Positions 57,788 through 64,000 of a stretch of 64,000 nt of DNA are shown here, in pieces. The stretch covers positions 1 through 64,000 of the forward strand of contig JAJZTF010000013.1 of assembly GCA_021821945.1 (NCBI GenBank), read 5' to 3'. Every line of letters begins with the position of its first letter. The first letter of the stretch is position 1. This stretch comes from Pseudomonadota bacterium (GTDB taxonomy: Bacteria; Pseudomonadota; Gammaproteobacteria; Burkholderiales; Gallionellaceae). The translations under genes were made by a program, and so were the position numbers. The notes under the pieces were generated by a model that did not search any database, was not told the origin of the DNA, and saw nothing but the letters and a program-made list of their open reading frames with translations.

Positions 57788-58813
57788 ATGCTTTTTTCAC
57801 CCTACATCACAAAGCCCGACAGCGTATCCAAGATCATGCTGCAGGTGCTTTTCGCACTGATTCCCGGCGTGATTCTGTATGTGTGGTTTTACGGGCCGGC
57901 CATTCTGGTCTCCATCCTGCTTGCAAGCGTGACTGGGCTCTCGACCGAGGCGCTGATGCTGAAACTCAGGAAACGCCCGATTGCGCCATTCCTGAAGGAC
58001 AACAGCGCGCTGCTCACGGCCTGGCTGCTTGCCCTTTCCATTCCCCCCCTCGCACCCTGGTGGCTGATCGTCGTGGGCACGATGTTCGCCATCGCCATCG
58101 CCAAACACCTGTACGGGGGGCTCGGCAGCAATCCCTTCAATCCTGCGATGATAGGCTATGCGGTGCTGATCATCTCCTTCCCGTCCCAGATGACCCACTG
58201 GCTCGCCCCAGTCGGGCTGGGGAGCGCGGGGCTGGACTTCCAGTCCCAGCTCAACTACATCCTTAAGGGCGCGCTGCCAGACGGACTGACGCTGGACGGC
58301 GTCACCATGGCCACACCGCTTGATACGCTGAAGACCCAGCTGCACATGAACGGTCAAATGCAGTCCATCCTTGAAATGCCGATCTATGGCCGCGTTGCCG
58401 GCGTGGGAAGCGAATGGGTATCCCTCGGCTTTTTGCTGGGCGGGCTTTATCTCTACCTGCGGCGCATCATAAGCTGGCACATACCCGCAGTCTTCCTGAT
58501 CACGCTGTTTGCGATATCCGGGGCCTTCCACCTGATCGACCCGGCGCGCCATGCCGGCCCGCTTTTCCAGTTGTTCTCGGGAGCGTCCATGCTGGGCGCG
58601 TTCTTCATCCTGACCGACCCCATCACCTCCCCTGCCACGCCCAGGGGACGCATGATCTTCGCATCCGGTGCCGCGATACTGACCTACCTGATCCGCGTGT
58701 ATGGCGGCTTCCCGGATGGCGTCGCATTCGCCACGCTGCTGATGAACATCTGCGTGCCGCTGATCGACGCGTGGACGCAGCCCGCGGTTTTCGGCAGAAA
58801 GGATGAGCGATGA
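57788..58813 (+). CDS. rsxD: Electron transport complex subunit RsxD/RnfD
   Basis: A 341-residue membrane subunit with about ten helices. The covalent-FMN threonine motif is in DGVTMATPLDT, in the large loop after NYILKG. HLYGGLGSNPFNPAMIGYA and FFILTDPITSPATPRG are strong NqrB/RnfD signatures. It passes electrons within the membrane part of the complex. It follows rsxC after two bases and overlaps rsxG by four. Confidence 0.95.
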   Translation: MLFSPYITKPDSVSKIMLQVLFALIPGVILYVWFYGPAILVSILLASVTGLSTEALMLKLRKRPIAPFLKDNSALLTAWLLALSIPPLAPWWLIVVGTMFAIAIAKHLYGGLGSNPFNPAMIGYAVLIISFPSQMTHWLAPVGLGSAGLDFQSQLNYILKGALPDGLTLDGVTMATPLDTLKTQLHMNGQMQSILEMPIYGRVAGVGSEWVSLGFLLGGLYLYLRRIISWHIPAVFLITLFAISGAFHLIDPARHAGPLFQLFSGASMLGAFFILTDPITSPATPRGRMIFASGAAILTYLIRVYGGFPDGVAFATLLMNICVPLIDAWTQPAVFGRKDER

Positions 58814-59442
58814 GGCGGACGATGGCCAAGGCCGCCCTGATGACGGCGCTCAATCTGGGCGCCTTCGCGCTTTTCGGCACGGCCCTGCTCGCCTTCATCT
58901 ACAACCAGACTCACGTGCGCATCGCCAGGAGCGTCGAGGAAGAGAAGCTCAAGCTGATCTCCCAGATACTGCCCGGGAACCTCTACGACAACGACATCAT
59001 CAGAAACACGAAGGAGATCGCACCCGACCCCCTTCTCGGCAATGAAGGAAATACCACCGTTTACCGGGCAACGCTCAAGGGCAGGCCTTCCGTCGCCGTG
59101 CTCGAGGCGGTGGCGCCCGACGGCTACAGCGGGAAGATATATATGCTGATCGCGATACGCGAAAACGGGGAAATCGCCGGCGTGCGCGTGGTGTCACACA
59201 AGGAGACGCCGGGCCTTGGCGACTACATCGACATCGCGAAGAGCGACTGGATCAGGGGATTTGATGGCAAATCGACGGCGCAGTACAATGACCAGGACTG
59301 GAAGGTCAGGAAGGACGGCGGGAAATTCGACTACATGGCGGGTGCGACGATCACTCCGCGCGCCGTCGTGAAGGCCGTGCACAAGGCATTGCAGTATTTC
59401 GCGCTGCACCGCGATCAGCTGTTCGCAGGAGAAATCAGATGA
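58810..59442 (+). CDS. rsxG: Electron transport complex subunit RsxG/RnfG
   Basis: A 210-residue subunit with one N-terminal helix (about 10-31) and a periplasmic FMN-binding domain. The flavinylation motif is AGATIT at 178-182, the counterpart of SGATxT, so ApbE-type covalent FMN attachment is expected. HKETPGLGDYID is the other family marker. Coupled to rsxD and rsxE by ATGA overlaps. Confidence 0.94.
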   Translation: MRRTMAKAALMTALNLGAFALFGTALLAFIYNQTHVRIARSVEEEKLKLISQILPGNLYDNDIIRNTKEIAPDPLLGNEGNTTVYRATLKGRPSVAVLEAVAPDGYSGKIYMLIAIRENGEIAGVRVVSHKETPGLGDYIDIAKSDWIRGFDGKSTAQYNDQDWKVRKDGGKFDYMAGATITPRAVVKAVHKALQYFALHRDQLFAGEIR

Positions 59443-60119
59443 GCTATCAGGAATTCAAGGACATCTTCTACAACGGGGTATGGAAGCAGAACACCGGCGT
59501 CGTCCAGCTGCTCGGCATGTGCCCCATCCTGGCTGTCAGCACCTCGGTCGTCAACGGCGTGAGCCTGGGGTTGGCCACCACCATCGTGATGGCGCTCTCG
59601 AACGCATCCGTCGCATTGATCCGCCAGCTGGTTCCCAACGAGGCGCGCATCCCCGTATTCATCCTGATCATCGCCGTGCTGGTCACCGCGATCCAGTATC
59701 TGATGAACGCCTATCTCTATTCGCTCTATGTGGTGCTGGGCATCTTCATCCCGCTGATCGTCACGAACTGCATCGTGCTGGCGCGCGTCGAGGCGTTTGC
59801 GGCCAAGAATCCCGCCTCCCAGTCCGCATTCGACGGCATGGCGATGGGCCTGGGCCTCACCGCAGTGCTCGCGGTGCTGGGCGGACTTCGCGAGATCATG
59901 GGCCACGGCACGCTGCTGTCCGGCATAGACCTGGCGTTCGGCCCGTCCGCAAAGTCTCTCGTGATCACGGTGCTGCCGGATTATCACGGCTTCCTTTTGG
60001 CGATACTGCCGCCCGGCGCCTTCATCACCCTGGGATGCCTGATCGCGGGCAAGAACTGGCTCAACCAGCGCGCAGAATCCAGACAGGCCCGTGTTGAGCC
60101 GGTTGCCTCCGCCGCATGA
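59439..60119 (+). CDS. rsxE: Electron transport complex subunit RsxE/RnfE
   Basis: A 226-residue membrane subunit with six helices, homologous to RsxA and NqrD. Cysteine-containing segments VQLLGMCPILAVST and LIVTNCIVLARVEAFA mirror those of RsxA and would complete the shared intramembrane cluster. GLREIMGHGTLLSG is a family marker. Its stop overlaps the start of nth, the classic rsxE-nth coupling. Confidence 0.95.
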   Translation: MSYQEFKDIFYNGVWKQNTGVVQLLGMCPILAVSTSVVNGVSLGLATTIVMALSNASVALIRQLVPNEARIPVFILIIAVLVTAIQYLMNAYLYSLYVVLGIFIPLIVTNCIVLARVEAFAAKNPASQSAFDGMAMGLGLTAVLAVLGGLREIMGHGTLLSGIDLAFGPSAKSLVITVLPDYHGFLLAILPPGAFITLGCLIAGKNWLNQRAESRQARVEPVASAA

Positions 60120-60748
60120 ATGCAGAAAAGCGGCGAGAGATATTTCTCCGATTCAAGGCGGCCAATCCGCACCCGACCACAGAGCTCGAGTATTCCACCC
60201 CATTCGAGCTCCTGGTGGCGGTGATCCTGTCGGCGCAGGCGACCGACGTCAGCGTGAATGCCGCCACAAGAATGCTCTATCCGGTTGCGAACACACCGGA
60301 GGCGATGCTCGATCTGGGCGAAGAAAAGCTCTCCCGATACATAGAGCGGATAGGGCTGTACAAGACCAAGGCCAAGCACGTGATCAAGACCTGCCGCATC
60401 CTGGTGGAGCAATATGGCGGCCAGGTGCCAAATACGCGCGAGGCGCTGGAAGCGCTGCCCGGCGTTGGGCGCAAGACCGCGAACGTGATCCTAAACACCG
60501 CATTCGGGGAACCCACGATTGCCGTGGATACGCATATCTTCCGCCTTGCAAACCGCATCAATCTCGCGCCCGGCAAGACCGTGCTCGAAGTCGAGAAGAA
60601 ACTGCTCAAGGTGATACCGAAGGAATTCCTGCATGACGCGCATCACTGGCTGATCCTGCACGGCCGCTATGTCTGCCAGGCGCGCAAGCCGAAGTGCGCG
60701 GAATGCCTGATTCGGGATCTCTGCGAATACAAACACAAGGGCGGATGA
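60116..60748 (+). CDS. nth: Endonuclease III
   Basis: A 210-residue DNA glycosylase/AP lyase that removes oxidised pyrimidines. The helix-hairpin-helix LPGVGRKTANVIL carries the catalytic lysine, VDTHIFRLANRI the catalytic aspartate, and the C-terminal 4Fe-4S loop has the C-x6-C-x2-C-x5-C pattern. Coupled to rsxE; the DUF1841 gene begins at the next base after its stop. Confidence 0.97.
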   Translation: MNAEKRREIFLRFKAANPHPTTELEYSTPFELLVAVILSAQATDVSVNAATRMLYPVANTPEAMLDLGEEKLSRYIERIGLYKTKAKHVIKTCRILVEQYGGQVPNTREALEALPGVGRKTANVILNTAFGEPTIAVDTHIFRLANRINLAPGKTVLEVEKKLLKVIPKEFLHDAHHWLILHGRYVCQARKPKCAECLIRDLCEYKHKGG

Positions 60749-61171
60749 ATGTTCTTCAATCCCTCACGAGACGAGGCGAGAAACTTCCTTTTCGAGGCAT
60801 GGCGCAAGAGAACGTCGAATGAGATCCTGACGCCGCTCGAGGACCTTGCGGCCCAGCTGATCGCAAAGCACCCGGAATACTTCTCCGTCTTCGAAGACCC
60901 GGAGCGCTACCTCGGGCGCGAATATCTGCCTGAAGCGGGGGAGCCGAATCCCTTCCTTCACCTGATGATGCATCTTGCGATCGAGGAGCAGATTTCCATA
61001 GACCAGCCGCAGGGAATACGCGCGCATTTCGTTCGCCTGACACATGAGCTCGAGTCCGAGCACGAGGCGCAGCATCGCATGATGGAGTGCCTAGGCGAAA
61101 TGATCTGGCGGGCGCAGCGCGATCGCACTGCGCCCGATGCTTCCGTCTATCTCGATTGCCTTGCCAGCTGA
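60749..61171 (+). CDS. DUF1841 family protein
   Basis: A 140-residue soluble acidic protein that matches DUF1841, a family mainly of beta- and gammaproteobacteria. The conserved features are FNPSRDEARNFLFEAWRK, HPEYF and the central NPFLHLMMHLAIEEQISIDQP. The histidines in HLMMHLAIEEQ and the later HELESEHEAQHRMME are metal-ligand-like, but no activity is known. It directly abuts nth, so it belongs to the rsx-nth transcript. Confidence 0.88.
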   Translation: MFFNPSRDEARNFLFEAWRKRTSNEILTPLEDLAAQLIAKHPEYFSVFEDPERYLGREYLPEAGEPNPFLHLMMHLAIEEQISIDQPQGIRAHFVRLTHELESEHEAQHRMMECLGEMIWRAQRDRTAPDASVYLDCLAS

Positions 61172-61175
61172 CGCA

Positions 61176-63254
61176 TCACTTCCTGTTCAGCTGCCTGATC
61201 AGGGATTGAAGCTCGGTCGCCGATTTCGATAGCTCGAGCGAAGCATAACGCGCGTCCTCGGCGATGCTCACGTTGCTGTTCACGAGATCGGAGATGCTCT
61301 CCAGGTTGTGCGACACGTTTTCGCTGGCAACCGACTGCTCCTTCGAGGCTTCGGCGATGCGCTGCGCATTTTCCGTCACCATGCGGCTGACGTCCATGAT
61401 CTGTTTCAGCGTCTCGCCGTTCTCGTGGACGATCTTAGATTCCTCCTCGACCTCCCTGATCGCCTCGTGCATGGACTCGACCACGCTCTGGCTCACCGCA
61501 TGGATGTTGCCCACCATGCTTGCGATGTCTGTCGTGCTCGAACCCGTGCGCTCGGCAAGCTTCCTCACCTCGTCCGCGACCACCGCAAACCCCCTGCCCT
61601 GTTCGCCTGCGCGCGCGGCCTCTATCGCCGCATTCAGCGCGAGCAGATTGGTCTGGTCTGCGATCTCCTTGATGACTTTGCTGATGTCGCCTATCTTCTG
61701 GATGGCCGACTTCAGGTTGTCTATCGCATCGCTCGATGAGCGCACCGCCTTGACCACCTTGGATGCCGAGAGCACAGCCAGCTCCATGCGCCTGTTGCTT
61801 TCCTCTATCATGCCCTGGGAACTGGTTGCGGCGCCTGCGGAATCCCTGGCATCCTGAGCGACCTGGGAGACGGACCTGCTGAAATCCTCCATGCTGCTCG
61901 TGATCTGCTGGATGTTGCTGCGCTGATTCGACGACTGCTCGGCCACCCTGACCACCTTCTCGTCGAGCTCGGTGCTGTGCTCCATGATGATGGATGCCGC
62001 AAGCTCCATCTCGTCCAGCATGACCTGGATCTGGGACTGCATGACCTGAAGCTTGCAGTAAAGTATCCCCGGTTCATCCCGCCCCGAGATGTCGATGTCG
62101 TTTGCAAGGTTGCCTTCTATCACGCCCTCGAACTGCTTCTCCATGCCGACCAGCGGGCGCTCGACAAACCGCTTGAATCCGAACCTCATCACCAGGAAGA
62201 TGAAAAGCTGGATGCCGATCTGCGATCCTATCAGCGTGATCAAGAGATTGTGCAGATGCGCGTATTCTCCGGTCAGATCGAGAGTGATGTCGGATGCGCC
62301 ATTCGAGCTCCCCACTTCGACCGCATGACAGCTAAGGCAGTCCGTGCCGTGAAAGGCATGGGATTCGATGTAGGGCGTGATCGCACGGAAGAGGAGCTTG
62401 TCGCCCACCTTTTCCTGGCTGAAGCTGGGAATAGACTTTCCGGCCCTGACCGATGCCTCTATCGTCTCCTTGACCAGGGGATCATCCAGATGCTCTTCCG
62501 GCAACCCGGGACCGAACTGTCTGACCACCTGCTCTGTGCGTACCAGGCGAAGCGACGTGAGATGCTGGCCCTCCATGATCTTGCGGATCATCAGCTTGCG
62601 GTTTTCCGGTTCGCTGATCTGCCCTGTCACCATCAGCATGTTCGCGCTGTCTATCACCTGCATCGCAGTCGCCTCCGAGCGCTGCCTTGCATGCTCCAGC
62701 ATGGTCGATTTCATCTCCCCGTAGAGCAGATAGGTCGCGCCTGCCAGGACGATGAAAAGTACGGGCTGTATGAATAGCTGCAGCTTCAGGTTCAAGGAGA
62801 GGTTCCTGAACCTGAACTTGTCGAACCTGGAGCCTATCGCAGCACCTGTCTCATTAAGCTTCCTGTACAGCGCCTCCGCCTCGCTTATCTCCTCCCTGGA
62901 AGGCTTGTGCCTGACGGAAATATATCCGACCACCTTGCCATTCTCGCTGATCGGGGATACCAGCGCCTTCACCCAGTAATAGTCGCCATTCTTGCAGCGG
63001 TTCTTCACGATGCCGCGCCATGGCAGTCCCGAAAACAGCGTATCCCACAGCCACTTGAATGCCTGGGGCGGCATGTCGGGGTGGCGCACGATGTTGTGGC
63101 TCTTGCCGACGAGCTCCTCCCTAGAAAACCCGCTTATTTCGACAAACGCATCGTTTGCATAGGTGATGATGCCCTTGAGATCGGTTTTTGAAACGAGCAG
63201 CATGCCTTCCGGAAGCAAATGCTCATGCTGCGTGACCGGCTGATTGTTCTTCAA
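61176..63254 (-). CDS. Methyl-accepting chemotaxis protein with cytoplasmic PAS and periplasmic c-type haem motif
   Basis: A 692-residue chemoreceptor. An Aer-like N-terminal PAS domain (about 15-115, with [20 protein letters not shown]) is cytoplasmic. Then come a membrane helix (158-178), a periplasmic sensory region with a haem-c motif C306-L-S-C309-H310, a second helix near 350, HAMP, and a signalling domain with the conserved tip [20 protein letters not shown]. It probably reports redox state or a haem ligand to CheA. A TTG start at 63254 preceded by GGGGGA is chosen because a sigma28 promoter places transcription start near 63310, which excludes the in-frame ATG at 63329 upstream of it. 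Confidence 0.85.
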
Positions 63255-63319
63255 TTTGCATTCCCCCAAGTGGCAGCGGGTCTCTCGCCCGGCGCCTTGA
63301 TGTTCAACGTGATATACCC

Positions 63320-63346
63320 TTATCGGCAATCCGCCATATTACTTTA
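63320..63346 (-). promoter_or_regulatory. Sigma28 (FliA) promoter of the chemoreceptor gene
   Basis: The minus strand reads TAAA, 15 bases, then GCCGATAA: an exact match to the TAAA-N15-GCCGATAA consensus for flagellar sigma factor promoters. It ties the receptor to flagellar gene expression. Confidence 0.88.
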
Positions 63347-63451: not shown

Positions 63452-63562
63452 TCAGTAGCGTGGCGCGGGAGATCCGCTGAACAGGATCATCAGCACCAAT
63501 ACAATGTATGGCGAAAAAACGAATAAAACCGACAATGCACCTACCATTCCGACATCTTGCAT
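63452..63562 (-). CDS. 36-residue single-helix membrane microprotein, FNR-type control
   Basis: A small gene found by reading the region between the terminator and the FNR box. The 36-residue product begins MQDVGMVGALSVLFVFSPYI and ends SGSPAPRY, with one hydrophobic helix (about 7-29) and a short polar C-terminal tail. GGAGG lies 8 bases before the ATG, a -10 box and a perfect FNR/ANR site lie further upstream, and a strong terminator follows, so the gene has its own complete transcription unit. I recognise no family. The size and oxygen-type control recall accessory subunits of terminal oxidases such as CydX, but there is no sequence match that I can see and no oxidase gene nearby. Confidence 0.7.
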   Translation of the reverse strand: MQDVGMVGALSVLFVFSPYIVLVLMILFSGSPAPRY

Positions 63563-63607
63563 TCTGACATCCTCCACAATGAACTTGGCAAAGCCGCCGG
63601 AACCAAG

Positions 63608-63613
63608 GATATA
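63608..63613 (-). promoter_or_regulatory. -10 box of the microprotein gene
   Basis: TATATC on the minus strand. A start near 63600 would put the FNR box centre at about -41, the class II activation position. Confidence 0.55.
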
Positions 63614-63633
63614 GCCCCGCCTTCACCGGAATA

Positions 63634-63647
63634 TTGATCCAGATCAA
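63634..63647 (-). promoter_or_regulatory. FNR/ANR (CRP-FNR family) binding site
   Basis: TTGAT-CTGG-ATCAA on the minus strand is a perfect match to the TTGAT-N4-ATCAA consensus. Its centre is 78 bases before the microprotein ATG. The site also lies about 93 bases before the HDOD gene on the other strand, so it could influence both. Confidence 0.85.
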
Positions 63648-63733: not shown

Positions 63734-64000
63734 ATGCAATCTCGTTTAGAGGGCAACGCAGGGGGAATCGGTGCTGCACATAGCTGGATGCACCTGGTAA
63801 AAATGCAAAGAGCTGATCAGTCTATTCGCAACAAACTGCTGGTGGCGCGTCTGCCGGTCATGCCGCAGATACTCTCGAAACTGCTCGCTCTCTGCCAGAG
63901 GGACGAGATCGGGGTGGGGGAGCTTGCCAAGCTCATCGCGCATGATGCAGGCATGGCGGTCAAGGTCTTGAACGTCGCAAACGGCGCCGCCTATAACCGG
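63734..64000 (+). CDS. HDOD-domain protein (partial, runs off the window)
   Basis: The first 89 codons of a gene cut by the right edge. After a poorly conserved start, the sequence RLPVMPQILSKLLALCQ, IGVGELAKLIAHDAGMAVKV and LNVANGAAYNR matches the beginning of an HDOD domain, the signalling relative of HD phosphohydrolases that often carries GGDEF or other output domains. The start is uncertain: ATG 63734, 63788 and 63803 are all in frame and none has a strong ribosome site. Confidence 0.75.
   Translation, partial: MQSRLEGNAGGIGAAHSWMHLVKMQRADQSIRNKLLVARLPVMPQILSKLLALCQRDEIGVGELAKLIAHDAGMAVKVLNVANGAAYNR

Follow-up and report, generated by a model that had tools for sequence, protein, structure and literature searches.

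Organization of the locus

The window, i.e. the whole stretch of 64,000 nucleotides that was analysed, carries close to its right-hand end a small gene with its own promoter and terminator. The features of the locus are as follows.

63647-63634, minus strand: FNR box TTGATCTGGATCAA, a perfect TTGAT-N4-ATCAA
63611-63606, minus strand: -10 element TATCCT, overlapping TATATC by four bases and separated from the box by a 22-nt spacer
~63599, minus strand: predicted transcription start, inferred from TATCCT as the -10 element
63575-63571, minus strand: ribosome-binding site GGAGG, ahead of the ATG at 63562
63562-63452, minus strand: small ORF MQDVGMVGALSVLFVFSPYIVLVLMILFSGSPAPRY, 36 codons and a stop, one predicted transmembrane helix
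63391-63370, minus strand: Rho-independent terminator (9-pair stem and T-run), separating the small gene from that of the chemoreceptor
61176-63329, minus strand: PAS and methyl-accepting chemotaxis protein, the downstream neighbour (longest-frame start)
63734-64000, plus strand: HDOD-domain protein, the divergent neighbour, running off the window end

The original prediction had described a perfect TTGAT-N4-ATCAA box, a GGAGG ribosome site and a 37-codon frame with a single helix, all of which are present. The hairpin with a T-run was also found, with nine base pairs, outside the segment then described. The proposed placement of the box centre near -41 was recovered (-41.5) when TATCCT was taken as the -10 element; TATATC, the hexamer originally chosen, gives about -39.5, so the position depends on the -10 selected. 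The observation is real and confirmed, and its interpretation was supported in part.

The flanks of the peptide's helix carry net charges of -1 (N side) and +1 (C side). A longer version starting at an in-frame GTG (63577, 41 aa) was rejected, as this start is not conserved in four relatives. An ORF of 36 aa on the plus strand, overlapping the locus (63504-63614), was considered and dropped. Two relatives suggest that the chemoreceptor gene may start nearer to 63258. In another part of the window (57788-60748) we recognised by eye rnfD-, rnfG- and rnfE-like genes followed by an endonuclease III-like gene, after which comes a DUF1841 gene (60749-61171).

Conservation and selection

The same gene was identified at the same place in four other genomes, and in all five loci it is flanked by the chemoreceptor and HDOD genes or their relatives. 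All five orthologs share the box, a -10 element (TATCCT or TATTCT) at the same distance from it, the ribosome-binding site GGAGGATGTC and the terminator, while the intervening sequence drifts. Both the stem and the loop of the terminator are conserved, with one outer position differing in G045. A search of the genus with the HDOD protein gave matches in 7 of 76 genomes; five are the orthologs, all with the small gene, and in the two distant matches (G037, G054) there is no box, nor was a relative of the small gene recognised by eye in the stretch inspected.

Conservation of the reading frame had been proposed as a check of the original prediction. The four relatives keep the frame and its third positions vary most: the variable columns at codon positions 1, 2 and 3 number 11, 3 and 16 of 24 each (permutation p 0.003). 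Within the 24-codon core (ten pairs) the mean pN was 0.12 and the mean pS 0.53, giving a pN/pS of ~0.22 that reflects purifying selection; pS among ortholog pairs reaches 0.8. The number of amino-acid variants was 13, compared with 23.8 +/- 2.4 after column shuffling. Judged from these comparisons, the small ORF is conserved as a protein.

The FNR box and its regulator

Perfect TTGAT-N4-ATCAA sites occur four times in the 2.47 Mb genome, as against none for the reversed control pattern, and two of the four appear by eye to lie inside coding frames. A Crp/Fnr protein encoded in the same genome (G000:C11) carries a C-x2-C-x5-C motif, one more cysteine further along and, in its recognition helix, ETVSR. 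This arrangement of cysteines is that of the Fe-S ligands, and the ETVSR helix suits an FNR box. The protein passes the NCBIfam Fnr cut-off (243 bits vs 228). One other protein of the genome, which looks CRP-like by eye, lies above the Pfam cut-off for the Crp-type HTH, and six weaker matches fall below it.

The claim of class II FNR geometry thus held up, with the box centred at -41.5 and an FNR protein encoded in the genome. In these respects, as in its perfect box, the promoter resembles known class II FNR-activated promoters, and activation of the small gene is predicted; from the sequence we infer that FNR activates this promoter. A similar box is described for the NO sensor DNR of other bacteria, namely denitrifiers (PMC1274295).

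The peptide family and its distribution

The taxonomic family is represented by 158 genomes, of which 46 matched the single peptide at E<=1; the weakest of these matches may be due to chance. With a 30-row profile, whose rows include fused anchors, 35 of the 158 genomes matched at E<=0.01. Members were scored in the fetched loci, which are a part of the 63 places found by the profile. The 58 distinct members comprise (i) 46 standalone peptides (25-61 aa, 44 different sequences) and (ii) 12 forms fused to a globin; two further fused members (L078, L079) lie outside the 58. The family pattern consists of a hydrophobic helix with SPF, SPY or a variant at its middle, and FSGK or a similar motif at its end.

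The order-level sample of 399 genomes, which includes some genomes of the organism's own family, gave 11 matches at E<=0.01: the own genome, seven genomes of family f37, and three weak and apparently spurious hits. Among class-level (369) and phylum-level (398) genomes, in samples that overlap and are thin, only the own genome matched at E<=0.001. Loci L073-L077, from another family of the order, encode a relative of 32 aa, immediately downstream of which follows a small membrane ORF that we take to resemble DUF2905; two of these genomes (G315, G378) also carry an anchored form of the group 1 truncated hemoglobin GlbN elsewhere in the genome.

Searches of Pfam and NCBIfam with the 30 alignment members gave no credible match (best E 0.094 and 0.045, respectively, for one member each), and the family profile matched no PDB chain at E<=10. 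Nothing credible was found in PHROGs, where the best match (E 0.01) was to a phage family of unknown function. Ten loci compared with RNA families gave four weak matches, all under the gathering score, and no relative was present among 96 pattern matches in viral contigs. By these searches, the peptide family appears new to every library searched (Pfam, NCBIfam, PDB, PHROGs).

Of the 46 standalone members, 34 carry a positive net charge on the C side of the helix and 5 a negative one; the corresponding numbers among the 12 fused members are 9 and 1. On the N side, 33 standalone members have no net charge and 10 are negative, compared with 5 and 7 of the fused members. The peptide probably adopts an N-out/C-in topology, an assignment that relies on the C side because the N-side charge is zero in 33 standalone members. 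The fused forms would need the same topology if their globin is cytoplasmic, which fits this orientation.

Among the nearest six ORFs on inspection of each of 14 family loci, no shared function was recognised by eye, and no oxidase genes were recognised by eye beside these loci or the window gene. Several groups of paralogs were distinguishable. Three standalone paralogs (L017, L027, L037) have palindromes like ATATATCATATTATGATATAT, noticed by eye close to where their promoters probably lie, and these suggest another regulator. Twelve loci (L015, L018, L022-L025, L029, L031, L041, L043, L045, L049) have alike leaders around GCTGTGGYGTACG...GGAGG and, again by eye, similar terminators, perhaps reflecting an RNA element or common origin. 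A variant subgroup (L042, L047, L066, L050) has a core around SPLIILFGMILFSGKPKD and a charged tail, and reaches 61 aa.

Relationship to the group 1 truncated hemoglobin

In relatives, the helix of the peptide forms the N-terminal anchor of GlbN, as in the 12 fused members among the 58. A single-sequence search with the window peptide detects fused GlbN (L009, L010) at E 2.7e-6. In the profile search the window peptide scores E 4e-14, being itself a row of that profile; the similarity spans ~30 hydrophobic residues and composition may partly account for it. Anchored GlbN (trHbN) of these relatives, which are probably Gallionella- or Sideroxydans-like, shares with the peptide the same N-terminal helix (FVFSPF...LMI.FSGK). 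The peptide differs in that its frame stops right after the helix, and a globin domain is absent from its 36 aa, which have no Pfam match. The AlphaFold model of an anchored relative consists of a helix, a loose linker and an all-helical domain, with the anchor at low confidence.

The globin belongs to group 1: the soluble GlbN of the window organism matches cyanoglobin 2hz2 (1.2e-33) and Mycobacterium tuberculosis HbN 1idr (2.2e-18), and is 81-88% identical to the aligned fused globins. A GlbN profile built from this soluble copy and six fused ones detected GlbN in 42 of the 158 genomes at E<=1e-20. As regards the peptide family, 31 of the 35 genomes that have it also contain GlbN, as against 11 of the 123 that lack it (Fisher 2e-19), the remaining 112 genomes having neither. 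The association was retained when one genome with a fused-only family match was removed (30/34), when the three genomes in which fused copies are the only strong matches were left out (28/32, p 1e-16), and when two further genomes with weaker matches were omitted (26/30, p 7e-15). Kinship was considered through two tests within genera: in the genus of the window (76 genomes) GlbN was found in 17 of 21 genomes with the family and 3 of 55 without it, and in a second one (34 genomes, grouped by the order of their handles) in 6 of 6 and 1 of 28, respectively. The exceptions are 11 genomes with GlbN and no peptide family, and four in which the family is present and GlbN was not detected, namely G027 (7% contamination), G056 (93% complete), G057 (87%) and G060 (65%).

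Globin content varies among these genomes. Two loci, L020 (G091) and L011 (G089), encode two tandem globin domains anchored by one helix. G123 has four Pfam globin matches, with two GlbN copies at E<=1e-20, and G017 has one globin and no GlbN. According to a comparison of such strains, Sideroxydans ES-1 has four truncated hemoglobins, three of them trHbN, and Gallionella ES-2 has one trHbO; in its treatment of the globins, the question of why one strain has so many was left open (PMC3770913). Among the papers searched, we found none joining a truncated hemoglobin with a small membrane protein, nor any on a standalone anchor.

The peptide gene and the GlbN gene are not neighbours. Each of the five ortholog genomes contains exactly one GlbN by profile, and it is unanchored (5/5). 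In all five (L154, L170, L166, L175, L172) this gene is divergent from an Rrf2-type gene and lies upstream of a reductase-like gene. For the Rrf2 protein of the window genome the best model is NsrR, below the cut-off (131 vs 182 bits), and the reductase has 2Fe-2S, FAD and NAD domains. A hemoglobin and a reductase under NO control fit the role of an NO dioxygenase. Upstream of the five GlbN genes we found a putative NsrR-type site agreeing at 11 to 13 of 14 positions with the published consensus gATGyAT-N5-ATrCATc, whereas the best score in the leader of the small gene was 7 of 14. The peptide and GlbN may therefore be made under different conditions, given a putative NsrR-type site for one and an FNR site for the other.

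Shared promoter and loss of the globin domain

A search for the box within 200 nt of the family members, with up to one mismatch allowed, identified it in 6 of 46 standalone members (the five orthologs and G048) and in 2 of 12 fused members (G031, G032). All eight boxes are perfect and all eight loci have the identical 22-nt spacing to TATNCT, so that anchored GlbN in two genomes has the same-spaced FNR promoter as the small gene. No such box lies within 200 nt of the remaining 50 members (40 standalone, 10 fused), and FNR control therefore seems to be a trait of the window's branch, not of the whole family. The G044 ortholog and the fused gene of G032 are 77.6% identical over 58 nt of promoter and leader, a stretch to which the box and -10 element contribute in part. 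No alignment was obtained between the leader of the window gene and those of the fused genes.

In G048 (L036, minus strand) a stop codon closes the box-bearing anchor ORF, and after it comes a globin remnant with a frameshift, which scored 26.6 bits compared with a best of 22.7 in 200 shuffles. The remnant lies just upstream of an intact anchored GlbN, and the box-bearing unit looks like a tandem duplicate from which the globin domain has been lost. Because of this case, loss of the globin domain from anchored GlbN appears to occur. No globin remnant was found after the window ORF (15.4 bits, with shuffles up to 18.1).

Discussion

The best explanation of these data, in our judgement evenly poised between being right and wrong, is that the small gene encodes an FNR-activated, globin-less membrane anchor working with a truncated hemoglobin. 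It would form a one-gene transcription unit activated by FNR from a class II promoter at low oxygen. Its product is predicted to be a 36-residue inner-membrane peptide with one helix, whose N-terminus would face outwards and whose C-terminus would be cytoplasmic. The peptide would be paralogous to the N-terminal anchor of GlbN but without a globin, and most likely derived from an FNR-controlled anchored GlbN by loss of the globin domain, if evolution ran in that direction. It may have kept the membrane contacts of the anchor (to GlbN, to a further copy of the peptide, or to an oxidase or an enzyme that handles NO), and the separate unanchored GlbN could thereby work at the membrane when oxygen is low. 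A more specific version, which we put forward tentatively and consider unlikely as it stands, is a split membrane hemoglobin, with the anchor supplied through FNR at low oxygen, the globin and reductase supplied through NsrR-type NO control, and the two signals jointly timing membrane placement.

The main rival, somewhat unlikely in our estimation, is a role independent of hemoglobin, in which the peptide would serve a terminal oxidase as accessory subunit or assembly factor, by functional analogy with CydX or CcoM; the GlbN fusions would then reuse a helix that binds the same oxidase. The size of the peptide, its single helix and FNR control all fit such a role. CcoM, too, has one helix; it is presumably among the PDB chains searched, none of which the family profile matched, and there is no sequence match between CcoM and the peptide. 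Likewise, Pfam presumably holds a CydX family, and the peptide has no Pfam match. The likeness to CcoM lies in length and setting, as CcoM is described as a subunit of cbb3 oxidase that has 36 aa and plays a role when oxygen is limiting (PMC10433244), and that to CydX/YbgT in being a small hydrophobic protein, which in the case of CydX/YbgT belongs to cytochrome bd oxidase (PMC6005532). Moreover, trHbN of the related strain ES-1 has been suggested as part of a terminal oxidase (PMC3770913). However, no credible Pfam or NCBIfam match was obtained, neither cydAB nor other oxidase genes were recognised by eye beside the window gene (or, for oxidase genes, beside the 14 family loci), and the presence of the peptide tracks that of GlbN. 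The original suggestion of a respiratory-complex subunit has accordingly found no support so far, since neither a family nor a PDB match was obtained and the evidence favours the truncated hemoglobin.

The remaining explanations are far less probable. A stress or toxin-like hydrophobic peptide (a type I toxin or general membrane modulator) would explain why some genomes have several scattered paralogs with their own leaders and terminators, and of the two weak promoter-like sites in the region, one is antisense and falls inside the ORF (63478-63505). We nevertheless regard this as improbable: such sites are at the chance level (2 found, 1.2 expected), 12 members are fused to GlbN, the FNR box and locus are conserved, and the best phage-family match is to a family of unknown function. 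That the ORF is a leader whose attenuator controls the downstream PAS-chemoreceptor gene is suggested by their common strand, the intervening terminator and the conserved neighbours, but the selection on its amino-acid sequence, the other neighbours seen by eye at family members elsewhere, and a promoter-to-terminator unit that is complete alone make this very improbable. Least probable, to the point of being barely tenable, is that the ORF is what remains of an anchored hemoglobin gene, now decaying and without function. Such a stage seems to be represented by the G048 copy; the small gene, in contrast, shows a low pN/pS even where synonymous divergence is high, and its control elements are kept in five genomes.

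Returning to the globin-less anchor, we consider the gene to be real and a lead on the membrane placing of hemoglobin, because its peptide belongs to the family of GlbN anchors. Small proteins with a single helix tend to be overlooked, and clues to their function are rare. In this case, the fusions, the common promoter layout, the example of globin loss and the strong pattern of presence tie an unclassified family of microproteins to truncated hemoglobins. The hosts appear to be microaerophilic iron oxidizers, and the proposed pairing, if true, would provide a way into the question of how soluble hemoglobins of bacteria may reach the membrane.
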